Below are positions 9,479 to 63,899 of a stretch of 64,000 bases of DNA, one piece after another (the first letter of the stretch is position 1; every line of letters starts with the position of its first letter). Below the pieces are notes generated by a model. The model was not told the DNA's origin and made no database searches. It saw only the letters and a program-made list of their open reading frames with translations. The position numbers and the translations under genes were made by a program. The DNA comes from a virus. The stretch spans positions 21,000 through 84,999 of the IMG/VR virus record IMGVR_UViG_3300042503_002394; one strand, written 5' to 3'.

Positions 9479-9532
9479 TTGGACTATTTTATTAAATAAA
9501 ATAAATGTTTTCTATTTTTTATTTAAAAAATT

Positions 9533-10300: not shown

Positions 10301-10303
10301 AAA

Positions 10304-10911: not shown

Positions 10912-10930
10912 CAAATTTATTGAATAAGGA

Positions 10931-11362: not shown

Positions 11363-11422
11363 ACTACTTTTTAGTTAGTTTGTTTTTTTAATGCACCCAT
11401 TTAGGTATGCAGTAAAAATTTT

Positions 11423-11581
11423 TTATAAAAAGAGTTCTTTTTCAGTTTCTTGATCAAAGAATTCTTTTTTAATTCTACCAATTATAAAATTCAAAGTTTC
11501 ATCTTCTATTTTTTCTCCTTGGTTTTCGTCAAAAAAAACATTAGATTCTTTTACTTCAGAGTCTGTAGGTAGAAAAATCAT
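11423..11581 (-). CDS. Small acidic hypothetical protein
   Basis: This 52-residue ORF runs from ATG at 11581 to TAA at 11423 in the gap between Hsp20 and NrdA. It is rich in Glu and Asp and has no cysteine or membrane segment. TATACA lies 6 bp before the ATG, the same -10-to-start spacing as the leaderless genes elsewhere in the window. The function is unknown. Confidence 0.5.
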   Translation of the reverse strand: MIFLPTDSEVKESNVFFDENQGEKIEDETLNFIIGRIKKEFFDQETEKELFL

Positions 11582-11619
11582 TGCTTATGTATATACAAGC
11601 AAAAATTAATTTTGGGAAA

Positions 11620-13284: not shown

Positions 13285-13287
13285 AAA

Positions 13288-14259: not shown

Positions 14260-14274
14260 AGTTAATTTTACACA
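14260..14274 (-). promoter_or_regulatory. Late-type GTG-TAAAAT motif before nrdB
   Basis: On the minus strand TGTG-TAAAAT is followed by 5 bp and the nrdB ATG, with no -35 match. Confidence 0.4.
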
Positions 14275-14484
14275 GTCTATGGGATCATGAATATTTTAGC
14301 AAGCAAATTTTTCTTAAATAATTTTTTTCCCATATTATTACGAACGTAGTGAGTAATAATATTACGTAACCTTTACTCTTTATTCTTTATTCTTTACTTA
14401 ACCTTTACTCTTTTACGAAACCTCAAAAAGCGAACCCTTTACATTATAGGGTTATTTAAAAATCTGTCAAGATAAAAAAAACTA

Positions 14485-15026: not shown

Positions 15027-15637
15027 AAGTTATAGCTATATCAGGAATCGCTCGGTCTGGCAAAGATACAATTGCAGATAAACTTTCAGAAGTCATCTCT
15101 GAAATGAACCCTGGCTTAAAAATTTCTAGAGAAAGTTTCGCTTCAATTTTAAAGCAAGAGATGTCTACGTTTATTTACGAAAAATTTAATAAAGACATTT
15201 TTAGCCTAGAAGGACAAGACAAAGAGAATTTAAGACCACTTTTAGTTGCATACGGTTCAGCAAAAAGAAATCTTAGCAATGGTAGATATTTTATAGAAGC
15301 ATTGCAAAAAAAGATTAGTATAGAAAACAATGATTTATGCATCATTTCAGACTTGAGATACGCTGATAAAGATTTTGACGAGCTTCATTGGCTTAAAAAT
15401 GAAATGGGCGGTAAATTAATCCATATCAAAAGGTATAGCGTTATAGATAATCAAAAAAAACAAAAAAAGTTTCTTTTGCCGCCAAATGAAGATGAAAAAA
15501 GAAATGATCCAGTTTTAAATAAAAACTCTGATTTCAATATTATTTGGCCATCTGCTAAAAATGATATCGAGTTAAACGAAATGGCTAGAAATTTTTGTGA
15601 AGATTTTTACTATAAAAATATATCATATCTTATCTAA
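15023..15637 (+). CDS. Deoxynucleoside monophosphate kinase-like protein
   Basis: The 204-residue product has a P-loop GIARSGKDT at residues 8-16 and CIISDLRYADKDF near residue 113, matching the T4 gene 1-type dNMP kinase layout. It would phosphorylate dNMPs to dNDPs and so complements NrdAB and dUTPase. It is translationally linked to its neighbours, overlapping dut by 4 bp and ending on the base that starts the next gene. Confidence 0.78.
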   Translation: MKVIAISGIARSGKDTIADKLSEVISEMNPGLKISRESFASILKQEMSTFIYEKFNKDIFSLEGQDKENLRPLLVAYGSAKRNLSNGRYFIEALQKKISIENNDLCIISDLRYADKDFDELHWLKNEMGGKLIHIKRYSVIDNQKKQKKFLLPPNEDEKRNDPVLNKNSDFNIIWPSAKNDIELNEMARNFCEDFYYKNISYLI

Positions 15638-16227
15638 TGCAACCATCTGATCCATTATTAGCCAATTTAGTAAAAGAGTCCAATGATGAGGGCGCTTTAA
15701 AAGAACTTATTTCTCGTCATTCTGGAATATACCTTGATATGATTAAAAAATTTGGATCTAGATCTTTGAGTAGTAATCAAATAAGTGATATGGTAGAAGA
15801 TAAAAACTATCAAATTTATAAAGCCGCGCTTGAATATGATGAAAGCAAGAGCAAGTTTTCAACCTACCTGGCGCTAAAAACTAAATATCTTTGCTTGACA
15901 AATAAAACAAACAATAAGAAAAATTCTAATATTGTTAATTTTGATGAAATTGAATTTACTCAAGAATACAAGGGTTTCGACCCAAGTGAAGAATCTTCTA
16001 GAAATGAATCATTTTTAAAAATTTATAATTTAATAAATAACCATTACGATGAAAGAATAAAGATTATATTTAGAGAAAGATATTTTTCAAACATAAATGG
16101 ATCTTTAAAACCATGGAAGCAAATAGCGTCAAAAGTTGGACTGTCAATCCAAGGATGCATCAACATACACAATAAAACAATAAAAGAATTTCAAGAAAAA
16201 ATAACAAATGAACAACTTAATTTTTGA
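15637..16227 (+). CDS. Sigma-70-like RNA polymerase factor
   Basis: The 196-residue product has a region 2-like N-terminal half (KELISRHSGIYLDMIKKFG, then YDESKSKFSTYLALKTKYLC, compare the PEYDPSKGKFSTYLY-type pattern of sigma region 2) and a region 4-like C-terminal helix-turn-helix (KPWKQIASKVGLSIQGC). It could direct host RNA polymerase to phage promoters. It sits in the nucleotide operon, so it is probably made before or with replication. Similarity is at pattern level, so another DNA-binding role is possible. Confidence 0.65.
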   Translation: MQPSDPLLANLVKESNDEGALKELISRHSGIYLDMIKKFGSRSLSSNQISDMVEDKNYQIYKAALEYDESKSKFSTYLALKTKYLCLTNKTNNKKNSNIVNFDEIEFTQEYKGFDPSEESSRNESFLKIYNLINNHYDERIKIIFRERYFSNINGSLKPWKQIASKVGLSIQGCINIHNKTIKEFQEKITNEQLNF

Positions 16228-53124: not shown

Positions 53125-54185
53125 TATAATAATTCTCGTTTGGAAATGCCAAGAATTCTAGCTTTAAATTCATCCATGGATTCCAATCTGTCAGCTTCTT
53201 GTTCAATTAATTTGTTTTGAAGTTCGGCCATCATGATCATTCTATCTCTTTCTTCTTTATCTTGGAATGCTTCAACTAAAGCAAAAATATTACCACTTTG
53301 CTCTCCCTTCTCTTTAAGTCTAGCTTGACGACTACCATTAAGATCTTTGGTTAAAGATTCAATTCGTTTTTCACATTGATTGAGTTCTTCGCTAGTTGCC
53401 TTAATAATCTCAGTTAAACGCATAGTGATATCTCTATCATTATCAGCGTCATTAAGTAAACCATTTAGTCTATCCATTCTTTGTTGAATGTGCTTCTGGC
53501 GTACATAATTAGCGCAAACAGTAATATAAAGGTTTTGTTCGTCTACTGTAAGATCTGGCTTATCCCAGACTACACGCACATATTCACTTTCAAATAACTC
53601 TCTATCTGATATGGTTGAATATTGATTAATTATATTTATAAATCTTGGGCTTCTTAAATAAATTAAAAGCTTTTCACAAAGCCTTTTCTGTTTGGTTGAC
53701 ATTGTTATTTCGTCTAAATTAACGCCAGCCCAATCATTGATTTTTTTTATAACTCTGGATATAGACTTTGGCGGTGTCCAACGATCAGAGGTAATTTGAT
53801 CCTCTTCATTTATTATTTCGGGCCTATTTCTTTTAAGAAATTCTGTTACCACCCTGTGCTTTATACTTAAGGATTGTATGCTCCTATCTTTAAAAGCTAA
53901 TCTGCTCGCTTCAAGTGCATTAATACCATTTTCAATATTATCACTCATTAAGAACTCTTTTTGTTCTTTTGTTAATTCTATTTCATCAACTTTTTCAACT
54001 AATGATGTTTTATAATTGAGATTTTGTTTACTTAAAAACGATCTAACTAGTCTTCCCTCGATACTCCTTCCATCAATGTTGGGGTTATTAAATACTTTTT
54101 TTGTTAATTCTCTCAAATCAGGAGTCTTTGCGAAGCCTTCTAATATAAGTTTCTTTTGATCTTCTGTAAGCTCTTGTTCGTTCAT
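53124..54185 (-). CDS. Possible terminase small subunit
   Basis: The 353-residue product contains two similar N-terminal helix-turn-helix-type repeats (LTEDQKKLILEGFAKTPDLR and LTKEQKEFLMSD, each followed by a conserved basic turn ending in RSFLSKQ or TEFLKRN). The C-terminal half is a long coiled coil. DNA-binding repeats, oligomerising coil and location just upstream of TerL fit a small terminase. The ATG overlaps the stop of the upstream gene. Confidence 0.5.
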   Translation of the reverse strand: MNEQELTEDQKKLILEGFAKTPDLRELTKKVFNNPNIDGRSIEGRLVRSFLSKQNLNYKTSLVEKVDEIELTKEQKEFLMSDNIENGINALEASRLAFKDRSIQSLSIKHRVVTEFLKRNRPEIINEEDQITSDRWTPPKSISRVIKKINDWAGVNLDEITMSTKQKRLCEKLLIYLRSPRFINIINQYSTISDRELFESEYVRVVWDKPDLTVDEQNLYITVCANYVRQKHIQQRMDRLNGLLNDADNDRDITMRLTEIIKATSEELNQCEKRIESLTKDLNGSRQARLKEKGEQSGNIFALVEAFQDKEERDRMIMMAELQNKLIEQEADRLESMDEFKARILGISKRELL

Positions 54186-54862
54186 AAAATATCATTATTT
54201 TTTAATACATTAATGGCAATCTCATAAAATTTCTTCTTTAAATTATTTATTTGCTTGTATCTTATTGTTTTTCTTTTCGATGAATCTGCTTTAAATTTAA
54301 AAAAAACTGCAATTTGCTCTTCAGAGTAATTTTCTATATAAAGCATCTTGTAAACAATTTTATGCTTTTCATTTAATTCATTCATAACCAAAGAATGAAG
54401 TTTATTCTGAGCTGCGTCATAATTAAAATTATCTTCGATATAAGTTTCGCCAAGAAACAATCCATCTTCCATTGGTAATGGCAGTTTTAAGTTGTACGCT
54501 TTTTCTTTTTTCTTTTGCCATTTAGAATAAGAGTCGCATTCAGAATTTTGTTTTCCATTTTTAGTAAATGAGCATGAATCACCTCCCAAATAAAACGGAC
54601 ACTTTAAACATGGTTTTGCAAAATTAGAATAATTATTCCTAATCATATTTTTCATTTGATTAGATATAATCATTGCCGCCCATGGTTTAAATGGGCGATC
54701 TTGATCCCACAAGTGCCATTTTTTAAAAATATGTAATCTTATCATTTGACAGACATCATCATAGTCTAACCATGAGATGGCATCCAATTGCCATTTAGCG
54801 CGATATTTCTTAAGAAGCTCTTCTAGTTCTTCGTTTTTTTCCTCATAAGTAAAATTATTCAT
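54182..54862 (-). CDS. Late sigma-like factor with zinc-type insert
   Basis: The 226-residue product has a region 2-like N-terminal half (WLDYDDVCQMIRLHIFKKW, then PFKPWAAMIISNQMKNMIRN), the pattern of T4 gp55-like late sigma factors. A cysteine-rich insert follows (CLKCPFYLGGDSC and a later C). The C-terminal half has a region 4-like helix-turn-helix (LNEKHKIVYKMLYIENYSEE). It may read the GTG-TAATTA motif found before late genes. Confidence 0.65.
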   Translation of the reverse strand: MNNFTYEEKNEELEELLKKYRAKWQLDAISWLDYDDVCQMIRLHIFKKWHLWDQDRPFKPWAAMIISNQMKNMIRNNYSNFAKPCLKCPFYLGGDSCSFTKNGKQNSECDSYSKWQKKKEKAYNLKLPLPMEDGLFLGETYIEDNFNYDAAQNKLHSLVMNELNEKHKIVYKMLYIENYSEEQIAVFFKFKADSSKRKTIRYKQINNLKKKFYEIAINVLKNNDIL

Positions 54863-56203: not shown

Positions 56204-56402
56204 GTTTAAATAAAGGGGTGGGGTTTGGTTTGAATTTGATAAATGTATGGTGTTCACCCCCTCCCCCTACTTTTTCGAAAAATCAATTTTTGCAAAATTT
56301 CAGAAAAACCCACCCCCTTGTCAAGAAAAAGATGTGAAAAAAAATAGTGAAAAAAAATCTTTTTTTTGTTGCGTTTGCGGGGGAATCTGGTAATGTTCTT
56401 AC
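56204..56402. other. Junction region between AT-rich late module and GC-richer array
   Basis: No gene is supported in these 199 bp. The composition changes here: G-runs and C-runs appear (GGGGTGGGGTTT near 56213, CCCCCTCCCCCTAC near 56256) with an approximate inverted repeat between 56211-56224 and 56308-56322. The right end carries a GTCAAGAAAAA/A-tract module and the first array promoter. Confidence 0.6.
56369..56402 (+). promoter_or_regulatory. Leaderless array promoter 1
   Basis: TTGCGT (56369-56374), 16 bp, TAATGT (56391-56396), 6 bp, ATG at 56403. Preceded by a GTCAAGAAAAA-A/T module at 56321-56368. Confidence 0.65.
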
Positions 56403-56573
56403 ATGTCAAACGAACTCCAACTCCTCCGCATCGGTGATGTAATCGAATCCAAGCAAGGCAAATTCAAGGTTGCCGACATTGTAGAAGAACAATGGTATGA
56501 GCCTTGGGTTGTGCTGGTAAAGTGGAACGGAAACGCTTGGGAAGATACGAGAATCCAATTCAAAGACCTCTGA
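56403..56573 (+). CDS. Small hypothetical array protein, beta-type
   Basis: The 56-residue product begins MSNELQLLRIGDVIE and has a strand-rich pattern with WYEPWVVLVKWNG, resembling a small SH3-like barrel. It is the first of the array genes. The N-terminal codons ATG TCA AAC GAA CTC are shared with the next gene. Function unknown. Confidence 0.6.
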   Translation: MSNELQLLRIGDVIESKQGKFKVADIVEEQWYEPWVVLVKWNGNAWEDTRIQFKDL

Positions 56574-56592
56574 AAATAAAAAATCTTTTTCC

Positions 56593-56626
56593 TTGCTCTA
56601 ACCTCAAAATCTGCTAACTTTCTCTC
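56593..56626 (+). promoter_or_regulatory. Leaderless array promoter 2
   Basis: TTGCTC (56593-56598), 16 bp, TAACTT (56615-56620), 6 bp, ATG at 56627. Confidence 0.65.
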
Positions 56627-56785
56627 ATGTCAAACGAACTCGCCAACCTCTACAGCGCCGAAACTCTTGCCGCTCTTGCCGAACTCGAAGCAGTCGCGCA
56701 ACGCTTTGAGCAACTGGCAATCCGCACGGGTGAAAACGCCCAAGCATTCATCGAAGAATGCCGCGAAATAAAATGGGAAAAGTGA
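56627..56785 (+). CDS. Small hypothetical array protein, helical
   Basis: The 52-residue product begins MSNELANLYSAETLAALAEL and is predicted wholly helical, Ala/Glu-rich. It shares its first five codons with the preceding gene but not the rest, which suggests that the promoter-plus-start segment was duplicated as a unit. Function unknown. Confidence 0.6.
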   Translation: MSNELANLYSAETLAALAELEAVAQRFEQLAIRTGENAQAFIEECREIKWEK

Positions 56786-56794
56786 AAATTTTTC

Positions 56795-56828
56795 TTGCGT
56801 TCCCTCTCTCATCTGCTAACTTTCTCAC
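56795..56828 (+). promoter_or_regulatory. Leaderless array promoter 3
   Basis: TTGCGT (56795-56800), 16 bp, TAACTT (56817-56822), 6 bp, ATG at 56829. Confidence 0.68.
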
Positions 56829-57137
56829 ATGTCCAACACAACTACCATGACCACCCCAACAATCGAATCCTTCACCGCTCGCGTTCCAGTCGGAAGCCTT
56901 ACCACCTACGGCATCTTCCTTGGTTTCGAGGATCAAAAAGCAATCTTCAAAGGCCGCATGAAAACAGGCTCCAAAGATGTTCTTGAGGTTGCCTTGAATG
57001 CCAAGCTAATCGGTGGCGACTTCACCTTGGACAAGGTGCAAGTGACAACCCTCGAACAAGTTGCACAACGCAACAAAGCAAACGCCGAAAGCATGAGCGC
57101 ATTCTATGAAGCTCGCCCCGACCTTCTCAATGACTAA
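56829..57137 (+). CDS. Hypothetical array protein
   Basis: The 102-residue product begins MSNTTTMTTPTIESF and has a beta-type middle (GIFLGFEDQKAIFKGRM) and a helical C-terminus. The Thr-rich start, ATG TCC AAC ACA ACT, is shared in form with several other array genes. It ends in GAC TAA CCC, a junction that recurs in the array. Function unknown. Confidence 0.65.
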   Translation: MSNTTTMTTPTIESFTARVPVGSLTTYGIFLGFEDQKAIFKGRMKTGSKDVLEVALNAKLIGGDFTLDKVQVTTLEQVAQRNKANAESMSAFYEARPDLLND

Positions 57138-57155
57138 CCCACACACACACACACC

Positions 57156-57335
57156 ATGAAACACACCATCACAATCCTTGGCTCTGCCATCATCACCATG
57201 TCGCCTGTCTTTAGCCTTTGTGCCTTCTGTATCTACGGAGGACGAAGCGAAGTGTTCGACGCTGTATGTTTCTTAACCTTTGGCGCAACTATGTATGCGC
57301 TCGCACACCTTCAATCATACATCAAACATAACTAA
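57156..57335 (+). CDS. Small membrane protein
   Basis: The 59-residue product (MKHTITILGSAIITMSPVFS at the N-terminus) has two hydrophobic segments around residues 6-26 and 36-52, so it is likely an inner-membrane hairpin protein. It is preceded by an (AC)n tract, CCACACACACACACACC, instead of the regular promoter, and follows the previous stop by 18 bp. It may be co-transcribed with it. Confidence 0.5.
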   Translation: MKHTITILGSAIITMSPVFSLCAFCIYGGRSEVFDAVCFLTFGATMYALAHLQSYIKHN

Positions 57336-57338
57336 CAC

Positions 57339-57563
57339 ATGAGCGCACGAAACAAAGCACGAAAGATGATCAACGCACAAGTCTACGCAATCACAGGCTT
57401 GTCACTCGATGATCTACCCGACACCGCTCTTCTATGTGACCACATGGATACATTGGAAGAGATGATAGAAGAAGCGGACAGCATGACCCCCATGAGTGAG
57501 CTTCTCGACTACGCACAAGAAGCCGCAATGGAATTTCTAGAAGAAGAAGGAATGTCGGCATGA
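57339..57563 (+). CDS. Acidic hypothetical protein
   Basis: The 74-residue product begins MSARNKARKMINAQVYAITG and is acidic and helical in its C-terminal half (EEMIEEADSMTPMSELLD, then AAMEFLEEEG). It is separated from the previous stop by only 3 bp and its stop overlaps the next start (ATGA), so it belongs to a small operon. Function unknown. Confidence 0.6.
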   Translation: MSARNKARKMINAQVYAITGLSLDDLPDTALLCDHMDTLEEMIEEADSMTPMSELLDYAQEAAMEFLEEEGMSA

Positions 57564-57670
57564 GTGAAGAACTGCATGACATAGTTGCAAGCGCCGTGTG
57601 CTTTACTACTACGCTTGTAGTAGTATGGCACATTGTGCATAGCATAACTACATTGCCACTGCCTCTGTAA
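57560..57670 (+). CDS. Very small membrane protein
   Basis: The 36-residue ORF begins MSEELHDIVASAVCFTTTLV and has one hydrophobic segment (residues ~8-28). It is coupled to the previous gene by ATGA overlap. Its stop TAA is the first bases of the following hairpin element. Small size makes it uncertain. Confidence 0.45.
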   Translation: MSEELHDIVASAVCFTTTLVVVWHIVHSITTLPLPL

Positions 57671-57744
57671 CTCGTTGAGAATGAGTGAGTTACGGGCGGG
57701 GGCGGGGCCGCGCCCCGTAACTGCTTGAAAATGAATAAGTTACG
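57668..57744. repeat. GC-rich composite hairpin element R1, inverted core
   Basis: Hairpin A (TAACTC ... GAGTTA) is followed by a 33 bp core at 57689-57721 with GTTACGGG and CCCGTAAC arms, then another TAACTGCTTG...AAGTTA hairpin. The core is the exact reverse complement of the R5 core at 61041-61073. It ends a gene cluster and may act as a bidirectional terminator. Confidence 0.7.
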
Positions 57745-57835
57745 AATGCGCGAATCATCATGCTTTGCTCAATCCGTCAAGAAAAAACACAGAAAAAATG
57801 CAGAAAAAAAAGATGAAAAAAAATGAAAAAAGATG

Positions 57836-57870
57836 TTGCGTTTAGTCGGCCCCAAGGTTATACTTTGCGC
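57836..57870 (+). promoter_or_regulatory. Leaderless array promoter 4
   Basis: TTGCGT (57836-57841), 17 bp, TATACT (57859-57864), 6 bp, ATG at 57871. The A-rich stretch 57778-57833 begins with GTCAAGAAAAA. Confidence 0.7.
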
Positions 57871-58098
57871 ATGACCAACACCACTACCACCGCCGCCTTG
57901 TTCCGCGCCACTAAAAACTTTACTGTTGCTTACTGGCACAGCAAGCACACCACCAAAATCACCAAGGGCGAAACGATCATGCCAAACGAAAATTTCCGCA
58001 TCTTGAATGGCTTCTTCTTCTGGGTTGAGCGCGTGAGCAATGAGCAAACCACGCAAATGACAAAACCCTTGCCAGTCGAATTGATCGAAGAAATCTGA
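57871..58098 (+). CDS. Hypothetical array protein
   Basis: The start at 57871 is set by the promoter; an in-frame upstream ATG at 57823 lies inside the A-tract. The 75-residue product begins MTNTTTTAALFRATKNF and is beta-type with NFRILNGFFFWVERV. It has a Thr-rich start like other array products. Function unknown. Confidence 0.6.
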   Translation: MTNTTTTAALFRATKNFTVAYWHSKHTTKITKGETIMPNENFRILNGFFFWVERVSNEQTTQMTKPLPVELIEEI

Positions 58099-58107
58099 AA
58101 ATTTTTC

Positions 58108-58141
58108 TTGCCATTCTCTCAAAATAAACTAACTTTCTCTC
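58108..58141 (+). promoter_or_regulatory. Leaderless array promoter 5
   Basis: TTGCCA (58108-58113), 16 bp, TAACTT (58130-58135), 6 bp, ATG at 58142. Confidence 0.65.
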
Positions 58142-58276
58142 ATGTCCATTGACCAACTCACCCACACCGATTCAGTCGAACTGCTCGCCGCATTTCACGA
58201 AGCCGCAACGCAAGCCATGTATGAGTGGCAAGCCGAACAAGCCGCCGAATACTTTTCTTCACTTCTTGAAAAATAA
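58142..58276 (+). CDS. Small hypothetical helical protein
   Basis: The 44-residue ORF begins MSIDQLTHTDSVELLAAF and is predicted entirely helical, rich in Ala and Glu. It has its own array promoter and follows the array's typical 6 bp spacing, which supports its being real. Function unknown. Confidence 0.55.
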   Translation: MSIDQLTHTDSVELLAAFHEAATQAMYEWQAEQAAEYFSSLLEK

Positions 58277-58279
58277 AAG

Positions 58280-58341
58280 TTGACGCAATTCGAAAAATCC
58301 GCCATACTTCTCCCGCAACAATAAACAAAACAAAACACACC
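58280..58341 (+). promoter_or_regulatory. Array promoter 6 with a short leader
   Basis: TTGACG (58280-58285), 17 bp, CATACT (58303-58308), then about 27 nt of A/C-rich leader before ATG at 58342. This is the one clear exception to the leaderless spacing. Confidence 0.5.
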
Positions 58342-58596
58342 ATGAACATAAACTACCAAGCATCCGCACTTGAAATCGCAAACGCACTCGTCGGCAAAAC
58401 CGTTCGCTACTTTGCGAATGATTCCAAAATCAAAAATGATGGCGTTCGCGTCTTCAAAGTCGAGGCAGTCAATCATGTTTCGATTGGCAAAAAATCAGGT
58501 CGTCGTTATGTCACTATCCTTGCCAAGGATGTTGACGATGGCGGCGAAAGCAAGCATCGCAACCTTCACCTCGCGGGAATTGATCTCGTCGTGTGA
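58342..58596 (+). CDS. Hypothetical beta-rich array protein
   Basis: The 84-residue product begins MNINYQASALEIANALVGKT and has a strand-rich middle (GVRVFKVEAVNHVSIGKK, RYVTILAKDV), consistent with a small beta barrel. It does not carry the MSN-type start and has a short leader, unlike its neighbours. Function unknown. Confidence 0.6.
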   Translation: MNINYQASALEIANALVGKTVRYFANDSKIKNDGVRVFKVEAVNHVSIGKKSGRRYVTILAKDVDDGGESKHRNLHLAGIDLVV

Positions 58597-58660
58597 GTGG
58601 TGAAGCGTGCTGGGCATCACACTAAAAGGCCCACCTTGTCAACCTTAAAAAATAAAAAAA

Positions 58661-58825
58661 ATGAAATCTGCCGTTCTTTGTCTTTTCTTTTCTTCTTTAC
58701 ACATTGCGATTTTTTCGATTGTGCGAGCGTATGACATCATACCACACGATCTAAACTTTATTGTTTTTTGGCTTTGCCTCGCGTTGACTTGGGCAGGGTG
58801 CTTCAAAAGCGCATTGCAAGAATAA
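58661..58825 (+). CDS. Small membrane protein
   Basis: The 54-residue product begins MKSAVLCLFFSSLHIAIFSI and has two hydrophobic segments (about residues 4-22 and 32-47), so it probably spans the membrane twice. It lacks a clear array promoter; TTGTCA lies 25 bp upstream but spacing does not fit. It may be co-transcribed from the gene before. Function unknown. Confidence 0.45.
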   Translation: MKSAVLCLFFSSLHIAIFSIVRAYDIIPHDLNFIVFWLCLALTWAGCFKSALQE

Positions 58826-58888
58826 TTTTTCGGGCATGGGTGAAAGGTCGCGCCTCTGTGGTAGGGGGCGCGACTACACCCAAAAGTC

Positions 58889-58943
58889 ATAACCGCTTGA
58901 AAATGAGCGAGTTACGGGGCGCGGCCCCGCCGCCGCCCGTAAG
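58889..58943. repeat. Composite hairpin element R2
   Basis: TAACCGCTTG...GCGAGTTA is followed by a 33 bp core at 58911-58943 (GTTACGGGG ... CCCGTAAG). It starts the first of three ~150 bp units that include an A/T module and a promoter. Confidence 0.7.
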
Positions 58944-59037
58944 TGTCAAGAAAAAAATGCGGTTTTGTGAAACTTTTTTTTCTGCAAAAAATGATTTTTT
59001 TTGTTGCGGAATCGGGGGCTTGTGATACCTTTCTTAC
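58943..59037 (+). promoter_or_regulatory. A/T-tract module and leaderless array promoter 7
   Basis: GTGTCAAGAAAAAAATGCGG (58943-58962) is followed by T/A tracts to 59003, then TTGCGG (59004-59009), 16 bp, TACCTT (59026-59031), 6 bp, ATG at 59038. Nearly identical modules occur at 59851 and 60452. Confidence 0.7.
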
Positions 59038-59193
59038 ATGTCTACCACATCACTCATCATCGCCATCGACAACCTCCGCAAGCAACTTGAACTTTGCGAA
59101 GACTTCTCCGATTGGGAAGGTTGCGAAAGAATCGAAGAAGAAATTTCTTCTCTTGAAGCAATACTGGAAGAAAAGAATTTGACAGAAGCATGA
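59038..59193 (+). CDS. Small coiled-coil array protein
   Basis: The 51-residue product begins MSTTSLIIAIDNLRKQLELC and is a strongly predicted helix with heptad-like spacing (EDFSDWEGCERIEEEISSLE). The last codons overlap the next start by ATGA. Function unknown. Confidence 0.6.
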   Translation: MSTTSLIIAIDNLRKQLELCEDFSDWEGCERIEEEISSLEAILEEKNLTEA

Positions 59194-59312
59194 AAACCAT
59201 CACCATCACCATCCAACCCGCAAAGCCTCGCATCCGCTTTGCCCCTGCAACGATTCGCTTTGTAGACAAAAAGAAAAAACAAAAAAAAGAATCTTGCAGA
59301 AATAAAAATTGA
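59190..59312 (+). CDS. Very small basic protein
   Basis: The 40-residue ORF begins MKTITITIQPAKPRIRFAPA and ends in a lysine-rich tail. It is coupled to the previous gene by ATGA overlap, and its own stop TGA lies inside the -35 of the next promoter. Existence is uncertain but supported by the tight coupling. Confidence 0.45.
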   Translation: MKTITITIQPAKPRIRFAPATIRFVDKKKKQKKESCRNKN

Positions 59313-59346
59313 CAACCCGCCCCAAAAACTTTATCTTTCTCCCGCC
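59309..59346 (+). promoter_or_regulatory. Leaderless array promoter 8
   Basis: TTGACA (59309-59314), 17 bp, TATCTT (59332-59337), 9 bp, ATG at 59347. Confidence 0.65.
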
Positions 59347-59520
59347 ATGAAAAACGCAATACTCGAAAGCCTCTTCCTTCTTTCCTGCTCCATCCTTTGC
59401 GGCTCTGGACTTTTCCTCATTGAATGCCCCGCTTGGTTGCAAAATAGTTTCCTTGTGATGATGGTTGTCCCAAGTCTCTGGTTCATTCCTAAAAGAATTT
59501 TCATCGAAATGAAAAAATAA
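59347..59520 (+). CDS. Small membrane protein
   Basis: The 57-residue product begins MKNAILESLFLLSCSILCGS and has two hydrophobic segments around residues 5-26 and 33-50. It is likely a membrane protein of the array. Function unknown. Confidence 0.5.
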   Translation: MKNAILESLFLLSCSILCGSGLFLIECPAWLQNSFLVMMVVPSLWFIPKRIFIEMKK

Positions 59521-59521
59521 G

Positions 59522-59559
59522 TTGATAATCTCGAAAAAAAATCTTACTCTTTCCCCGCC
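59522..59559 (+). promoter_or_regulatory. Leaderless array promoter 9
   Basis: TTGATA (59522-59527), 17 bp, TACTCT (59545-59550), 9 bp, ATG at 59560. Confidence 0.6.
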
Positions 59560-59784
59560 ATGACCACCATCCAAAGAACATCACACAGCAACACCTACAA
59601 AACCTCACTCTTTGACTTGAGCATCCCAAAGAGAAAAAGCAAAAGACCTATGATCTGTTTCACGAATCACGAAATGGCTGTTGCCATGTTCATCGACAGA
59701 AGTGAAGCGGCAGATGTCCTGCAAAGAAAATTCAAAAATCTGCTTGACATGAACAGAAAAACAACCCGCTTCATGCGTAAATAA
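59560..59784 (+). CDS. Hypothetical basic array protein
   Basis: The 74-residue product begins MTTIQRTSHSNTYKTSLFDL and is basic throughout (PKRKSKRP, then NRKTTRFMRK). It might bind nucleic acid, but no motif is visible. It has its own promoter and ends before hairpin element R3. Confidence 0.55.
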   Translation: MTTIQRTSHSNTYKTSLFDLSIPKRKSKRPMICFTNHEMAVAMFIDRSEAADVLQRKFKNLLDMNRKTTRFMRK

Positions 59785-59797
59785 AAAGCGCACATCA

Positions 59798-59851
59798 TAA
59801 CTTGTTGAAAATCAACGAGTTACGGGGCGCGGCCCCGCCGCCAGCCGTAAC
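59798..59851. repeat. Composite hairpin element R3
   Basis: TAACTTGTTGAAAATCAACG-AGTTA hairpin and a 33 bp core at 59819-59851 (GTTACGGGG ... AGCCGTAAC). Second copy of the ~150 bp unit. Confidence 0.72.
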
Positions 59852-59945
59852 TGTCAAGAAAAAAATGCGGTTTTGTGAAAGTTTTTTTTCTGCAAAAAGT
59901 GAAAATTTTTCTTGCGATATCGCGGGGATGTGATAACTTTCTTGC
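59851..59945 (+). promoter_or_regulatory. A/T-tract module and leaderless array promoter 10
   Basis: CTGTCAAGAAAAAAATGCGG (59851-59870) and tracts to 59911, then TTGCGA (59912-59917), 16 bp, TAACTT (59934-59939), 6 bp, ATG at 59946. Confidence 0.72.
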
Positions 59946-60086
59946 ATGACTGACAGCAACACCACCCCCGACACAGAAAACCACAACGGAACTTTCGGCT
60001 TGAATGATCGCCCATCTTTCAGCGACAGCGAAGACTTTGGCTTGTTCGGTTGGTTGGGCGAAGAAGAAGAGCAGGAAGAAAAATAA
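59946..60086 (+). CDS. Small acidic array protein
   Basis: The 46-residue product begins MTDSNTTPDTENHNGTFGLN and ends GEEEEQEEK, so it is strongly acidic and probably disordered. It could mimic nucleic acid charge, but that is speculative. It has a regular array promoter. Confidence 0.5.
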   Translation: MTDSNTTPDTENHNGTFGLNDRPSFSDSEDFGLFGWLGEEEEQEEK

Positions 60087-60101
60087 GAAAAGGAACTCCG
60101 A

Positions 60102-60113
60102 TACAATAAGTGT
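60102..60113 (+). promoter_or_regulatory. Extended-type -10 without -35, array
   Basis: AAGGAACTCCGATACAATAA includes TACAAT (60102-60107), 6 bp, ATG at 60114. The same block recurs at 60330-60350 as AAGGAACTCTGATATAATAA, where TG precedes TATAAT as in extended -10 promoters. There is no -35 match. Confidence 0.5.
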
Positions 60114-60341
60114 ATGAGAAAATACAAGCCATGGAATCTATCAAATCGTTATGGTGTAAGTCATTACGAAGTTCCTGATGACTTTGTTAGAGACGATTAC
60201 CTGAAACGATACGATACAGTAGATGTTGTGCAGGTGAATACTGATGGAACTCGTACGTCTTATCCAATGAATCATCGCGTTCTTGCAGAATGTCTAGGAA
60301 GAGATCAGTTTGAAAGCGTAGGTTGTTGGAAGGAACTCTGA
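60114..60341 (+). CDS. Hypothetical array protein
   Basis: The 75-residue product begins MRKYKPWNLSNRYGVSHYEV and is mixed, with FVRDDYLKRYDTVDV. Its codon use is more A/T-rich than its neighbours, and it is preceded by a different promoter type. Both facts suggest a separate origin. Function unknown. Confidence 0.6.
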   Translation: MRKYKPWNLSNRYGVSHYEVPDDFVRDDYLKRYDTVDVVQVNTDGTRTSYPMNHRVLAECLGRDQFESVGCWKEL

Positions 60342-60391
60342 TATAATAAGAACATATGAAATACCTACCAACGATCAACCTATGGGCTTGA
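60342..60391 (+). pseudogene. Second copy of the promoter with a truncated 11-codon ORF
   Basis: The promoter block at 60330-60350 repeats that at 60092-60110: TATAAT (60342-60347), 8 bp, ATG at 60356. Only 11 codons follow (MKYLPTINLWA) before TGA at 60389-60391. It is probably a leftover of a deleted gene. Confidence 0.5.
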
Positions 60392-60398
60392 CACTCTC

Positions 60399-60452
60399 TA
60401 ACTCGTTGAAACCCAGCGAGTTACGGGGCGCGGCCCCGCCGCCAGCCGTAAC
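60399..60452. repeat. Composite hairpin element R4
   Basis: TAACTCGTTGAAACCCAGCG-AGTTA and a 33 bp core at 60420-60452 identical to that of R3. Third copy of the ~150 bp unit. Confidence 0.75.
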
Positions 60453-60546
60453 TGTCAAGAAAAAAATGCGGTTTTGTGAAAGTTTTTTTCTCATAAAAAA
60501 TGATTTTTTTTGTTGCGTTTCGAGCGAATTGTGATAACTTTCTTAC
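60452..60546 (+). promoter_or_regulatory. A/T-tract module and leaderless array promoter 11
   Basis: CTGTCAAGAAAAAAATGCGG (60452-60471) and T/A tracts, then TTGCGT (60513-60518), 16 bp, TAACTT (60535-60540), 6 bp, ATG at 60547. Confidence 0.75.
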
Positions 60547-60753
60547 ATGTCCAACACGACCACCACCACCCGCCCTCGCATCAACACTCTTGTTCGATTC
60601 ACCTACTGCGGAATGAATCTGACTGGAAGCGTCACCGACCGCGACACTCTCGACGGCGCGTTCATCATCATCTACCGCGACCCATACTGCGGCGACCGCT
60701 GCACGGTTGCATCGAGCCGAGTTGAAAATCTGAAAATTTTTCACGGAAAATAA
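60547..60753 (+). CDS. Hypothetical beta-type array protein
   Basis: The 68-residue product begins MSNTTTTTRPRINTLVRFTY and contains GMNLTGSVTDRDTLDGAFII, consistent with an SH3-like small barrel. The start ATG TCC AAC ACG ACC ACC ACC is CA/CC-rich. Two cysteines near DPYCGDRCT might bind a metal. Function unknown. Confidence 0.6.
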   Translation: MSNTTTTTRPRINTLVRFTYCGMNLTGSVTDRDTLDGAFIIIYRDPYCGDRCTVASSRVENLKIFHGK

Positions 60754-60763
60754 AAAGTTTTTC

Positions 60764-60797
60764 TTGCGTTTCTCTTAAAATCCATTAATCTACTCCC
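60764..60797 (+). promoter_or_regulatory. Leaderless array promoter 12
   Basis: TTGCGT (60764-60769), 16 bp, TAATCT (60786-60791), 6 bp, ATG at 60798. Confidence 0.65.
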
Positions 60798-61001
60798 ATG
60801 TCCAACACCTACCACGCCACCGAAGTTTCCCCCGAAGAATACACCGCCGCTCTTGCGGAAGCCGCCGAGCTTGCGCTCGCGGACTACCACGCGCACCTCG
60901 ATCAGCTTGAGGCCCAGCGCCAGCCCGACGATTCGGATTGGAACTACTACCCCGAAGACGACTACAACGAATACACGATGGGCTACGATGGCGGCTTCTG
61001 A
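60798..61001 (+). CDS. Acidic hypothetical array protein
   Basis: The 67-residue product begins MSNTYHATEVSPEEYTAALA. Its N-terminal half is an Ala/Glu helix, and its C-terminal part is rich in Asp, Tyr and Asn (NYYPEDDYNEYTMGYDGG). It has the MSN-type start and a regular promoter. Function unknown. Confidence 0.6.
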   Translation: MSNTYHATEVSPEEYTAALAEAAELALADYHAHLDQLEAQRQPDDSDWNYYPEDDYNEYTMGYDGGF

Positions 61002-61019
61002 GTCGCCCCATCGCCTTTC

Positions 61020-61096
61020 TAACTCATTGAAAACAAGCGAGTTACGGGGCGCGGCCCCGCCCCCGCCCGTAACTCATTCAAAACCAATGACTTACA
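61020..61096. repeat. Composite hairpin element R5
   Basis: TAACTCATTGAAAACAAGCG-AGTTA, a 33 bp core at 61041-61073 (GTTACGGGG ... CCCGTAAC), then a further hairpin TAACTCATTC...AATGACTTA. The core equals R1 in reverse orientation. Confidence 0.72.
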
Positions 61097-61110
61097 GCGG
61101 CCCATGTAGT

Positions 61111-61158
61111 CTATTTACTATTTTGCTATTTACTATTTTGCTATTTAACTATTTGCTA
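61111..61158. repeat. Short tandem repeat, 15 bp unit
   Basis: Two perfect copies of CTATTTACTATTTTG (61111-61125, 61126-61140) and a degenerate third copy to 61158. It sits between R5 and an A-tract module with GTCAAGAAGAAAA at 61169. It is AT-rich and lies in a 239 bp gap without a gene. Confidence 0.75.
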
Positions 61159-61206
61159 GTGTTGATTTGTCAAGAAGAAAATTGCAGTTTATTCTGAAAA
61201 TAAAAT

Positions 61207-61240
61207 TTGACACCTCGCGTCTTTGTGTTAAGTTTCCCCC
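61207..61240 (+). promoter_or_regulatory. Leaderless array promoter 13
   Basis: TTGACA (61207-61212), 16 bp, TAAGTT (61229-61234), 6 bp, ATG at 61241. Confidence 0.65.
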
Positions 61241-61381
61241 ATGCAAATCATCAACCACATCCTGTCACTATTCACACGCGACCGCAAATCAATTTACGGA
61301 TCGCGTATCTTTCAACAACAATCTTGGCTTGATAAGCAAGTGCAAGAATCGCAATGGAAGCGCAGATTTCTTGTTGACTAA
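61241..61381 (+). CDS. Small hypothetical basic protein
   Basis: The 46-residue product begins MQIINHILSLFTRDRKSIYG and ends RRFLVD. Its last codons GTT GAC TAA coincide with the -35 of the next promoter (TTGACT). Function unknown. Confidence 0.55.
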   Translation: MQIINHILSLFTRDRKSIYGSRIFQQQSWLDKQVQESQWKRRFLVD

Positions 61382-61407
61382 CCCCCAAAATAAATTAAAC
61401 TATCCCC
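61374..61407 (+). promoter_or_regulatory. Leaderless array promoter 14
   Basis: TTGACT (61374-61379, overlapping the previous stop), 16 bp, TAAACT (61396-61401), 6 bp, ATG at 61408. Confidence 0.65.
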
Positions 61408-61584
61408 ATGCAAACAAAAACATTTGTCATAGAAGACGAGCCGATTGTTTTTATCGTTGATGGAACACGAGGCATTGTGATAAACCCAATGGAAGAACGA
61501 GTTGAGATTGATACCCAAATCCCCGATGGAATTGAAAACCCATTTGATTATCTCTTGGAAGACTATGAAGATGGAGTTCTTTGA
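61408..61584 (+). CDS. Small acidic hypothetical protein
   Basis: The 58-residue product begins MQTKTFVIEDEPIVFIVDGT and is acidic at its C-terminus (DYLLEDYEDGVL). Its first part is beta-type. The start codons ATG CAA ACA are shared with the gene at 61627. Function unknown. Confidence 0.55.
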   Translation: MQTKTFVIEDEPIVFIVDGTRGIVINPMEERVEIDTQIPDGIENPFDYLLEDYEDGVL

Positions 61585-61592
61585 TTTTCTTG

Positions 61593-61626
61593 TTGACTAA
61601 CCCCAAAAATAATACACACTACTGCC
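61593..61626 (+). promoter_or_regulatory. Leaderless array promoter 15
   Basis: TTGACT (61593-61598), 16 bp, CACACT (61615-61620), 6 bp, ATG at 61627. The -10 is weak. Confidence 0.5.
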
Positions 61627-61878
61627 ATGCAAACAACCACACTTGAACAACTACACGAAGCACTCAGTGACGCTTATGCTGTCGATCTAAACGATACGCT
61701 TTACTTTATCGGACATGACGATGAAGGCCCATTCGTTGCCGACAATCATGGCGATGACTATGTTTCACTTGCCAAAGTCGATGGCGACATTGAGGTTTTG
61801 GAATATGGTTTTTTCTTTTATGTTAATACAAGACCTGTCACATTGAAGCCACTTGTTTTGCTTTCAAAAACCTATTGA
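61627..61878 (+). CDS. Acidic hypothetical array protein
   Basis: The 83-residue product begins MQTTTLEQLHEALSDAYAVD and is acidic and beta-type in the middle (LYFIGHDDEGPFVADNHGDD). It ends next to the following promoter, whose -35 overlaps the stop. Function unknown. Confidence 0.6.
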   Translation: MQTTTLEQLHEALSDAYAVDLNDTLYFIGHDDEGPFVADNHGDDYVSLAKVDGDIEVLEYGFFFYVNTRPVTLKPLVLLSKTY

Positions 61879-61909
61879 CTAACCCCAACTCCTAACCTAC
61901 ACTACTGCC
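61875..61909 (+). promoter_or_regulatory. Leaderless array promoter 16
   Basis: TTGACT (61875-61880), 17 bp, TACACT (61898-61903), 6 bp, ATG at 61910. Confidence 0.65.
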
Positions 61910-62392
61910 ATGCCTAACTGGAACGAAAATAGATTGTCGATCATGGATTGCTCTCCAGAATTGGAAAGCTATCTAAAAGAAAATGGTCTTTCATTCCACA
62001 AGATCAAACCCACACCACCCGAATTGCTTGAGGGCAATGGATGGTATAATTGGAGACTTGAAAACTGGGGAACTAAATGGGACTTGAGTGAACAAGAGCA
62101 ACGCGAAGTTGCTGATCAACTCATCTCTGAAGATTGCGACTTTCAAGCTCCATTCATGACTGCTTGGAGTCCACCACTTCAAGCCATTGCCGCTTTGTCT
62201 GAAATGTTTCCAAACGATCAATTCACGCTGGACTACTTTGAAAGCGGTTGCTGGTTTGCTGGGACTGCTATCATTTACGCAGGTCAAATTGACGACAACC
62301 AAGTTGATGATGCTGATGTTGCGGAGTTTGCAAAAGAAAACTTTAACTTTGTCGAATATGACGAGGATGAAGAAATTCCTGCTGATGTCTAA
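61910..62392 (+). CDS. DUF1281/YubB-like (Api92-type) ferredoxin-fold protein
   Basis: The 160-residue product begins MPNWNENRLSIMD, and the segment GWYNWRLENWGTKWDLSE near residue 44 is the signature of the DUF1281/YubB family found in phages and plasmids. Later GCWFAGTAIIYAGQIDDNQV and an acidic tail also fit. The biochemical role of the family is not established. It is the largest gene of the array and the one most clearly of phage/plasmid type. Confidence 0.75.
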   Translation: MPNWNENRLSIMDCSPELESYLKENGLSFHKIKPTPPELLEGNGWYNWRLENWGTKWDLSEQEQREVADQLISEDCDFQAPFMTAWSPPLQAIAALSEMFPNDQFTLDYFESGCWFAGTAIIYAGQIDDNQVDDADVAEFAKENFNFVEYDEDEEIPADV

Positions 62393-62401
62393 AAAAAATA
62401 G

Positions 62402-62438
62402 TTGACATAGGGGGCGAAAGCCCCCACACTCTCCCCGC
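62402..62438 (+). promoter_or_regulatory. Array promoter 17 with a hairpin in its spacer
   Basis: TTGACA (62402-62407), 17 bp spacer, CACACT (62425-62430), 8 bp, ATG at 62439. The spacer holds GGGGGC-GAAA-GCCCCC (62410-62425), a six-pair stem with a GNRA loop, which could fold in RNA from upstream transcripts. Confidence 0.5.
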
Positions 62439-62780
62439 ATGAAAATCACTCACCAAGAAGCCGAACAATACATCCGCTTGACATTGCGCCAGCATAACAT
62501 GACGCACATCCCTATTCGATGGACAAACACAAAAAGAAGATTGGGTTGCTATCGCGTAGTTGAAAAGAGAATTGAGCTTTCAAATCAAATCCTGCAGAGC
62601 TTCCATTTGTTTTCTGAAGTTTTCTTGCACGAACTCGCACACGCTCTTGACATAACCGAAAGAACAAAATTCTTTGGCACACACAAGAAAAATGGCCGCA
62701 ATGACTTTCATGGCGAGAATTGGAAAAAATGGTGCTTGACACTCCGTATTCCTGCTCGTAGATTCATCCCAACAAACTAA
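62439..62780 (+). CDS. SprT-like zinc metallopeptidase
   Basis: The 113-residue product has FLHELAHALDI near residue 65, the HExxH zinc-binding motif (HELAH), and FHGENWKKW near residue 91, where the third ligand His of SprT-type proteins is expected. It is a short SprT-like domain without a zinc ribbon. Related domains cleave DNA-protein crosslinks, so a role in removing host proteins from DNA is conceivable. Substrate is unknown. Confidence 0.75.
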   Translation: MKITHQEAEQYIRLTLRQHNMTHIPIRWTNTKRRLGCYRVVEKRIELSNQILQSFHLFSEVFLHELAHALDITERTKFFGTHKKNGRNDFHGENWKKWCLTLRIPARRFIPTN

Positions 62781-62793
62781 CCAACAAAACAAC

Positions 62794-62958
62794 ATGACCA
62801 CAATCGAAGAACTACTAAACACAATTGAACAGCTCAAAGACATTGCCCAACAAGCATTAGAGCTTGCAGAAGCGTATTCTGGCGGCGAAAGTGAAGTCGA
62901 GGAAGAACTCCGCGAGAATCTTAAAATCATTCTTGACAACCATCACGCCAACGACTAA
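62794..62958 (+). CDS. Small acidic helical protein
   Basis: The 54-residue product begins MTTIEELLNTIEQLKDIAQQ and is acidic and helical throughout. It does not have a clear promoter of its own and lies 13 bp after the SprT-like gene, so it may be co-transcribed. Its end contains the next promoter. Confidence 0.55.
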   Translation: MTTIEELLNTIEQLKDIAQQALELAEAYSGGESEVEEELRENLKIILDNHHAND

Positions 62959-62967
62959 CCTACAGCC
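62933..62967 (+). promoter_or_regulatory. Leaderless array promoter 18 inside the preceding gene
   Basis: TTGACA (62933-62938), 17 bp, TAACCT (62956-62961), 6 bp, ATG at 62968. The -35 lies within the previous coding sequence and the -10 overlaps its stop codon. Confidence 0.6.
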
Positions 62968-63096
62968 ATGGACGATCTAATAGAAAAAGCAATCAAACAA
63001 ATCGAAGAAGACTTGTCTTGGGGCGATAGAACTGCAATAGCCGCACTCTTATCTTTTGTTCCAGAAGAAAATCTTTTAGACTTTCTGGCGCAATAA
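62968..63096 (+). CDS. Small acidic hypothetical protein
   Basis: The 42-residue ORF begins MDDLIEKAIKQIEEDLSWGD and is helical and acidic. The embedded promoter with standard spacing supports it as a gene. Function unknown. Confidence 0.5.
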   Translation: MDDLIEKAIKQIEEDLSWGDRTAIAALLSFVPEENLLDFLAQ

Positions 63097-63102
63097 AATA
63101 TG

Positions 63103-63137
63103 TTGACAAGCAATCCCAAAACAACTAACCTCACGCC
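63103..63137 (+). promoter_or_regulatory. Leaderless array promoter 19
   Basis: TTGACA (63103-63108), 17 bp, TAACCT (63126-63131), 6 bp, ATG at 63138. Confidence 0.65.
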
Positions 63138-63449
63138 ATGCAAGACTACATCCACATAGACACCAACAATCCCATTCACGCCGAAGCATACCTAATCGCC
63201 GCAGGACATTTCCTTTCTAAATGGCCGCAAGATTGGAGTGCTGAAAGACTCTCTCTCGCTTTGCTCGCTGATGAATACAGCACATCAGAACAGCAGGAAG
63301 ATCAAAAGCAAATCGAAGTTTGGGATGCGGTTTCAAAGTTTGAACTTCACCCAATGGACGATGCCAGCCCTTTTGCTTTTGTAGAAGAACTAATCAATAA
63401 CCTCGCGGAAGACTTTGTGGGTTTTCACACCAAACATTCCAAACAATGA
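63138..63449 (+). CDS. Hypothetical array protein
   Basis: The 103-residue product begins MQDYIHIDTNNPIHAEAYLI and is mostly helical and acidic (LLADEYSTSEQQEDQKQIEV). It is coupled to the next ORF by ATGA overlap. Function unknown. Confidence 0.6.
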   Translation: MQDYIHIDTNNPIHAEAYLIAAGHFLSKWPQDWSAERLSLALLADEYSTSEQQEDQKQIEVWDAVSKFELHPMDDASPFAFVEELINNLAEDFVGFHTKHSKQ

Positions 63450-63604
63450 AACATCTTGTTTTTATCATTCATAATGGACACATTGCATATCGCATGGACA
63501 ATCGGAATGGCTCTCATCCTCTTTTTAATGAGCAGCCGCAAAAAGTAATTGACTACCTCATCAAACTCATTCAACCTCACACACATGAAATCATTGCATC
63601 TTGA
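63446..63604 (+). CDS. Small hypothetical protein, ATGA-coupled
   Basis: The 52-residue ORF begins MKHLVFIIHNGHIAYRMDNR. Its ATG overlaps the stop of the previous gene, and its end overlaps the next gene by 20 bp. An alternative 24-residue frame at 63474-63548 (MDTLHIAWTIGMALILFLMS...) could encode a single-span membrane peptide instead. ATGA coupling favours the former. Confidence 0.4.
   Translation: MKHLVFIIHNGHIAYRMDNRNGSHPLFNEQPQKVIDYLIKLIQPHTHEIIAS
63549..63584 (+). promoter_or_regulatory. Leaderless array promoter 20
   Basis: TTGACT (63549-63554), 17 bp, CAACCT (63572-63577), 7 bp, ATG at 63585. The -10 is weak. Confidence 0.5.
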
Positions 63605-63899
63605 AGGAGGCGGCATTGGCTACCTCGAAAGCGAACCACAAAAGACACTCACCCTTAAACTCCACACCGACTCTGGGCATGGATGGCTTGAAGTGCCAAA
63701 GCGGGAAGTCGAAGCCCTTGGCGTAAAGTTAAGCCGCTACAGCTACCAAGACAAATCAAACTTCTACCTTGAAGAAGATTGCGACTTGACAGCCTTTCTC
63801 CGAGCTTACAAAAACAAATTCGGTGGCTCTCCGACGATTGACTTTGTGCCACAGGTAGTTGGCGATCATCCAATCAGAAGTTTCGCAAGGGTGGGTTGA
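63585..63899 (+). CDS. Hypothetical array protein
   Basis: The start at 63585 is chosen from the promoter position; an in-frame upstream extension would begin inside the -35. The 104-residue product begins MKSLHLEGGGIGYLESEPQK and has a mixed pattern with SGHGWLEVPKREVEALGV. A hairpin and element R6 follow. Function unknown. Confidence 0.55.
   Translation: MKSLHLEGGGIGYLESEPQKTLTLKLHTDSGHGWLEVPKREVEALGVKLSRYSYQDKSNFYLEEDCDLTAFLRAYKNKFGGSPTIDFVPQVVGDHPIRSFARVG

Follow-up and report, generated by a model that had tools for sequence, protein, structure and literature searches.

Host-takeover modules of large phages of the SPO1 type consist of tandem small genes with many host-type promoters, and the transcripts of these genes carry leaders with ribosome-binding sites. 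A region of similar layout is found in a 64,000-nucleotide (nt) stretch of viral DNA, referred to here as the window (positions 21000-84999 of the 84,999-base IMG/VR virus record IMGVR_UViG_3300042503_002394). From 56.2 kb onwards, the window holds an array of 28 tandem small-protein genes with host-type promoters, most of them encoding fewer than 110 amino acids (aa), which is the layout of an early or host-takeover region. As in SPO1, the small genes are of unknown function and are gathered in one region; in contrast to the SPO1 genes, the array genes are predicted to be leaderless.

Leaderless genes as such are already known. The closest experimentally supported parallel is the '-10 adjacent to ORF (open reading frame)' mode of Deinococcus-Thermus, where TANNNT, often TACACT, lies ~6-7 base pairs (bp) upstream of the ORF and is strengthened by a -35 element at 17 bp (PMC12340547). 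A published criterion for TA-led leaderless bacterial genes is a TANNNT whose first T lies ~12 bp upstream of the start codon (PMC3160421, PMC12340547), and the promoter-bearing array genes, which carry this motif at this position, qualify as leaderless by it (PMC3160421). Both groups resemble the array in having TANNNT ~6-7 bp before the start and no Shine-Dalgarno (SD) sequence, yet they comprise host genes that are scattered and mostly lack a -35 element, whereas the array is made of consecutive phage genes, nearly all of whose promoters include one. The leaderless messenger RNA (mRNA) of lambda cI (PMC9031893) has its start codon at or near the 5' end, as predicted for the array, but such cases are single genes, while here about twenty stand in a row and are kept over a clade. 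Finally, the actinobacterial phages, namely the Microbacterium phage Pumpernickel and mycobacteriophage L5 (gp82/gp88), have the DUF1281-like, GP88 and L5 gp82 families in common with the array and likewise show TANNNT at 6 bp, at a minority of starts; they are, however, mostly SD-led (25/37 genes in the tested stretch), compared to 1/28 in the array. In the open-access literature searched, we found no phage module built almost wholly of tandem leaderless promoter-gene cassettes. What appears to be new here is a predicted module of this kind, kept across freshwater and marine contigs with several promoter families.

Promoter geometry of the small-gene array

With a strict scan of the plus strand between 56.2 and 64.0 kb (TTG[AC]NN, N16-18 and TANNNT, followed by an ORF of ≥35 aa whose first ATG was taken as its start), we found 17 sites, of which 14 lie exactly 6 bp from the ATG, two lie at 9 bp and an unrelated one lies at 29 bp. 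In 200 dinucleotide shuffles of the array, the mean number of sites at 5-7 bp was 0.03 and the maximum was 1, and the AT-rich (30% GC) 56.2 kb of the window contain, on both strands, 28 strict sites, none of them at 6 bp. When CACACT and CAACCT are also admitted as -10 hexamers, 19 of the 28 array genes possess a promoter (15 at 6 bp, two at 9 and one each at 7 and 8), the spacer between -35 and -10 being 16 or 17 bp. With TTGaca-like and TAtaaT-like hexamers 16-18 bp apart and a conserved footprint, these promoters are of the sigma70 type. A generic consensus scan (TTGACA/TATAAT, at least 9/12) returned 15 sites, barely above the 9.2 in shuffles; the signal of the array hence lies in position and not in consensus strength.

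An earlier note on this DNA had claimed that each small gene carries a sigma70-like promoter at a fixed spacing, mostly 6 bp from the ATG. The spacing is borne out by 15 of 19 promoters at exactly 6 bp, and the -10-to-ATG distances are not random, given 14 strict sites at 6 bp against 0.03 in shuffles. The claim that each gene has a promoter applies to 19 of the 28 genes; the other nine (57156, 57339, 57560, 58342, 58661, 59190, 60114, 62794 and 63446, genes being named by their start position) lack a -35/-10 pair at the ATG.

We consider it probable that these sigma70 promoters are placed such that they yield leaderless, SD-free mRNAs, that the promoter-less genes ride along, and that cassettes are swapped at the promoters. 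In such a scheme, about two thirds of the array genes would be transcribed from their own sigma70-type promoter, possibly by host RNA polymerase early in infection, starting at the start-codon A or at most 3 nt from it, and the leaderless mRNAs would be translated without an SD sequence, presumably by 70S-type initiation. The leaderless geometry is indirectly well supported by a spacing that is found clade-wide and kept through promoter swaps (see below), by nearly exclusive ATG starts and by the near-absence of SD sequences. Indeed, an SD core precedes only 2/46 genes of the AT-rich half and 1/28 array genes; in four isolated phages with common gene families, the stretches tested contain 15-25 SD-core starts each and 0-3 such promoters. 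Start codons at 6 bp are nearly exclusively ATG (71 ATG vs 2 GTG; 159 ATG vs 1 TTG), as expected for leaderless messages. For promoters at 9 bp, the predicted first transcribed base is mostly a purine, 3 nt before the ATG. Across all arrays, 9 bp is a frequent distance and 8 bp hardly ever occurs.

Conservation and exchange of promoter-gene cassettes

Orthologues in the relatives L012, L013, L014, L019 and L020 keep the length and the start of the array genes. Where divergence suffices, nonsynonymous divergence (dN) is well below synonymous divergence (dS) for most of them, such as gene 61910 (dN 0.02-0.08 vs dS 0.18-0.47) and gene 62439 (dN 0.02-0.06 vs dS 0.27-0.42). Most array genes are under purifying selection, one exception being gene 58142, whose protein has strongly diverged in L013 and L014. 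Furthermore, the alignment of upstream regions over 30 orthologous pairs revealed a clean footprint with conservation peaks at the TTG and at the T-A-T of the -10: identity is 0.97 at -12 and 1.00 at -11, -7 and -34, compared to 0.53-0.57 in the mid-spacer and 0.50 at -60 to -46. The spacing also outlasts the promoters themselves. Gene 57871 has one promoter in the window and another in L012/L019 at equal spacing, the promoters of gene 59038 are unlike each other in the window, L012, L014 and L020, all of them at 6 bp, and that of gene 60798 is replaced between the window and L020 with the 6 bp retained.

PhoH also led to a set of mostly marine relatives (L026-L101), of which 26 loci contain four or more such sites, every one on the strand opposite PhoH. 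L026-L101 have 367 distinct promoters, with 169 at 6 bp, 41 at 5, 20 at 7, one at 8 and 18 at 9. Clustering at 70% identity leaves 154, of which 85 lie at 6 bp. Hence, the spacing for which the earlier note suggested scanning related phages is shared by freshwater relatives and by no fewer than 26 PhoH-linked contigs. The consensus in L026-L101 is TTGCAT or TTGACT followed by TATACT or TATAGT, often with an extended TGn. The TTTG of Bacteroidota sigmaA promoters, at -8 to -5, is not in register in either the marine TATACT/TATAGT or the freshwater TAACTTTC/TACACT, and by their motifs the promoters of the marine relatives are sigma70-like and not of the Bacteroidota TAnnTTTG type. In L017 and L021, phages of ~140-150 kb that have only some array genes in common with the window, other motifs take the place of the -35 element (TAATAAGAAACTAAAC upstream of TATACT; TAAAAACCACAT upstream of TAAACT or TAGAAT), and many -10 hexamers still lie at 6 or 9 bp (in L021, 12 genes at 6 and 10 at 9). 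Within L021, a different 150-kb phage, TAAAAACCACATTAAACT-like motifs stand ahead of many array genes between 2515 and 19568, at 6 or 9 bp from the ATG; in the lake phage L017, TAATAAGAAACTAAACTATACT-type motifs without a -35 precede the array-gene orthologues at 7859-14400.

The array also contains internal repeats, namely 157-nt cassettes at 82-86% identity and families of promoter regions of 60-70 nt, and when a gene is lost, one promoter becomes joined to the gene that follows. Gene 61408 is absent in L012, L013, L019 and L020, where a 51-bp alignment overlap covers exactly both promoters; gene 62968 is likewise absent in L012 and L013, and gene 59347 in L012. Of the alignment breakpoints, 42/80 (29/58 distinct) fall within -50 to +35 of the ATG of a promoter-bearing gene vs 21% expected, although the p value of 5e-10 is optimistic, as events are partly shared between relatives. 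A cassette would, in this picture, comprise ~40 bp of promoter plus the ORF, and genes would be gained, lost and re-promotered via recombination between promoter sequences.

Organization of the array and of the genome

The features of the array are collected in Table 1. The array is composed of six blocks parted by GC-rich palindromes; most genes of a block are individually promotered, and most internal gaps measure 26-53 bp, about the length of a promoter itself. In one case, the promoter of gene 62968 sits in the end of gene 62794, the stop codon TAA of the latter being the first half of the -10 TAACCT. Among the nine promoter-less genes, three overlap the preceding stop codon by 4 bp and one starts 3 bp after it; they would ride behind a promoter-bearing neighbour. 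Terminator-like sites within the array are few, below the shuffle count, and the array is not strictly monocistronic in the sense of an own promoter and terminator for each gene. Because most gaps hold only a promoter and few have room for a terminator, nested read-through transcripts within the palindrome-bounded blocks are likely. The view that the region is an array of single genes rather than an operon is thus valid for the promoter-bearing genes, while the nine others belong to short operons, with read-through likely.

The palindrome is repeated, tripartite and GC-rich (GAGTTACGGG...CCCGTAACTC), flanked by TAACTC..GAGTTA arms, and also occurs in L035, L036, L039, L044, L046 and L049. It is kept in diverged marine relatives, there with T-runs after it; the palindromes possibly serve as bidirectional terminators. 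Between 60090 and 60356, two copies of GGAACTC(C/T)GATA(C/T)AATAA stand shortly upstream of ATGs, perhaps a third promoter type. Most of the array proteins scanned match no family.

Table 1. Features of the small-gene array and GTGTAA sites, in window coordinates unless stated otherwise
Position	Strand	Promoter or motif	bp to ATG	Gene	Remarks
56369-56573	+	TTGCGT-N16-TAATGT	6	56403-56573 (56 aa)	dN 0.000, dS 0.13 vs L012
56593-56785	+	TTGCTC-N16-TAACTT	6	56627-56785 (52 aa)	
56795-57137	+	TTGCGT-N16-TAACTT	6	56829-57137 (102 aa)	dN 0.05, dS 0.36
57156-57670	+	no -35/-10 pair		57156, 57339, 57560	gaps 18, 3, -4 bp; operon tail of 56829
57688-57722	.	GC-rich palindrome			between gene blocks; more copies near 58910, 59818, 60419, 61040, 63956
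57836-58098	+	TTGCGT-N17-TATACT	6	57871-58098 (75 aa)	
58108-58276	+	TTGCCA-N16-TAACTT	6	58142-58276 (44 aa)	
58280-58308	+	TTGACG-N17-CATACT		58342	possible promoter, leader ~30 nt
58342-58825	+	no leaderless promoter		58342-58596, 58661-58825	
59004-59193	+	TTGCGG-N16-TACCTT	6	59038-59193 (51 aa)	
59190-59312	+	no own promoter		59190-59312 (40 aa)	ATGA overlap with preceding gene
59309-59520	+	TTGACA-N17-TATCTT	9	59347-59520 (57 aa)	
59522-59784	+	TTGATA-N17-TACTCT	9	59560-59784 (74 aa)	
59912-60086	+	TTGCGA-N16-TAACTT	6	59946-60086 (46 aa)	
60102-60341	+	-10-like TACAAT, no -35	6	60114-60341 (75 aa)	only in same population (L011)
60513-60753	+	TTGCGT-N16-TAACTT	6	60547-60753 (68 aa)	
60764-61001	+	TTGCGT-N16-TAATCT	6	60798-61001 (67 aa)	
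61207-61381	+	TTGACA-N16-TAAGTT	6	61241-61381 (46 aa)	
61374-61584	+	TTGACT-N16-TAAACT	6	61408-61584	-35 inside end of preceding gene
61593-61878	+	TTGACT-N16-CACACT	6	61627-61878 (83 aa)	
61875-62392	+	TTGACT-N17-TACACT	6	61910-62392 (160 aa)	DUF1281_C / Api92-like
62402-62780	+	TTGACA-N17-CACACT	8	62439-62780 (113 aa)	SprT-like
62794-62958	+	no own promoter		62794-62958 (54 aa)	13 bp past preceding stop
62933-63096	+	TTGACA-N17-TAACCT	6	62968-63096	
63103-63449	+	TTGACA-N17-TAACCT	6	63138-63449 (103 aa)	
63446-63604	+	no own promoter		63446-63604 (52 aa)	ATGA overlap
63549-63899	+	TTGACT-N17-CAACCT	7	63585-63899 (104 aa)	promoter within preceding gene
14268-14273	-	GTGTAA	8	ATG at 14259	example of second motif class
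2694, 37406, 40552, 48257, 50288 (starts)	-	GTGTAA	8-9		
1791, 6035, 6678 (L009)	-	GTGTAA	8-9	structural and metabolic genes	

The window encodes a terminase, a tape-measure protein, PhoH, a dUTPase, a deoxynucleoside monophosphate kinase, a ribonucleotide reductase and two sigma-like proteins. Among isolate phages, its terminase has only distant relatives, all matching below 60%, and the region 54-64 kb has no DNA-level match in any isolate phage. The array had been taken to end at 63.6 kb; in the nearly identical contig L011 it runs on to ~15.4 kb (L011 coordinates), ~3.3 kb past the window end, with DUF932, GP88 and L5-gp82-like genes in the extension.

A second motif class, GTGTAA, is found 7-9 bp before the ATG in nine genes vs 0.04 expected, which is the strongest signal of all hexamers (p 7e-19). 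The sites, which precede structural and metabolic genes, have no -35 element, and in relatives they peak at 8 bp and at 11-13 bp before the ATG. GTGTAA is probably a late promoter that works with a phage sigma factor and gives very short leaders; sigma70-like phage proteins are encoded at 54182-54862 (minus strand) and 15637-16227 (plus strand), and are candidate readers of this motif. Because structural genes carry GTGTAA at 8-9 bp, the leaderless layout is not a speciality of early genes, and near-leaderless expression would, on this interpretation of GTGTAA, be a genome-wide habit and not an early-gene device.

Alternative explanations and implications

Several points weigh against a leaderless array. 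The transcript starts at these ATGs are predictions, and so is their fit to the sigma factor and ribosome of the host. The promoter copies in one genome are partly mutual duplicates, so that a single-genome count overstates the independent evidence. A few array genes look leadered, namely 58342 and, in L011, the DUF932 and the L5-gp82-like gene. Moreover, weak structure and A/C-rich first codons, which favour leaderless translation (PMC9031893), do characterize the first 40 nt of array genes, yet promoter-less genes are equally weakly structured and A/C-rich (minimum free energy -1.47 vs -1.79, p 0.66); we thus discarded low 5' structure and CA-rich codons as evidence specific to leaderless genes.

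The leadered appearance of these three genes would fit transcripts that start further upstream throughout the array, with TAnnnT standing by the ATG through coincidence or as a translation signal. However, the hexamer comes with a TTG element at the proper distance of 16-17 bp, the two being conserved together, the DNA upstream of -45 is not conserved, many gaps are only just promoter-sized, and in Deinococcus the same motif is a proven -10 and not a ribosome site (PMC12340547), which makes this explanation very improbable. The repeats within the array and the concentration of breakpoints in promoters are also what one would see if a single promoter-ATG junction had been copied many times and the spacing reflected descent only, without function. 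Yet four sequence classes have one geometry (TTGCG..TAACTT; TTGAC..TACACT/TAACCT; the marine TTGCAT..TATACT/TATAGT; and the -35-less motifs of L017/L021), promoters with differing spacers and flanks agree at -34, -12, -11 and -7 and in the 6 bp, and the 6-bp class remains the majority after clustering. Such an origin by descent alone is very unlikely and already largely refuted by the swapped promoters; together with the upstream footprint, these rule out pure duplication without constraint. As to the integrity of the sequence, the GC content leaps abruptly from ~0.30 to ~0.45 at 56.2 kb, exactly where minus-strand structural genes give way to plus-strand small genes, as in an assembly chimera with an array from another organism. 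Both L011 and L022, which are pieces of a single near-identical contig, span this junction, but so do the independent contigs L024 and L025 despite ~78% identity in the structural half; their small-gene region lies beside PhoH, has a GC content of 0.43-0.48 and carries the same promoters. With arrays opposite PhoH in the PhoH-linked marine contigs as well, we ruled out a chimera, whose probability is negligible; the small-gene region is a module of an uncultured tailed phage.

A far more serious alternative, to which we give a chance not much short of even, is that leaderless, SD-less expression of many genes is a habit of the host itself, so that the phage merely follows host rules and the array is an ordinary gene-dense early region in an unusual host. 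Both halves of the genome are almost devoid of SD sequences, structural genes too carry a motif at 8-9 bp, leaderless genes make up ~20-40% in Actinobacteria and Deinococcus-Thermus hosts (PMC3160421), and the actinobacterial phage Pumpernickel, which has one gene family in common with the array, shows TANNNT at 6 bp in 5/37 genes. Known leaderless-rich hosts, however, still use SD sequences for many genes, as does Pumpernickel. A phage contig that was binned into a Flavobacteriaceae metagenome-assembled genome (MAG) is the only genome match, 300 relatives of this MAG gave none, and flavobacteria have only 5.5% leaderless mRNAs and a different -10, TAnnTTTG (PMC9723704). A Flavobacteriaceae host is supported neither by the 300 MAG relatives nor by the promoter type. 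Two contigs with related terminases, L102 and L105, are both binned in one Flavobacteriaceae MAG, probably as co-binned phage, and provide a weak host hint. The clamp-loader-like, GP88, DUF932 and ribonucleotide reductase genes of L011 do not indicate any single host group, and the sole Rfam match on L011 is a transfer RNA gene in the array flank.

Altogether, if the promoters of the array are indeed placed for leaderless mRNAs, this widespread aquatic clade may run nearly its whole programme on leaderless or near-leaderless messages, with the 6-bp sigma70 array on the one hand and the phage-specific GTGTAA, perhaps read by a phage sigma factor, on the other. Promoter-ATG junctions would then act as joints of gene exchange, and at least three groups (this one and the L017 and L021 types) would have reached the 6-or-9 bp spacing with different motifs. 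We put this broader proposal forward tentatively, as somewhat less probable than its opposite. For annotation, the geometry shows at which codon tiny phage genes truly start, and it may be a clue to hosts in which SD-less, leaderless messages are tolerated. With dozens of homologous and swapped promoters, the array is a natural test bed for promoter spacing vs start-codon choice, and it suggests a compact way for phages to gain and shed small genes.

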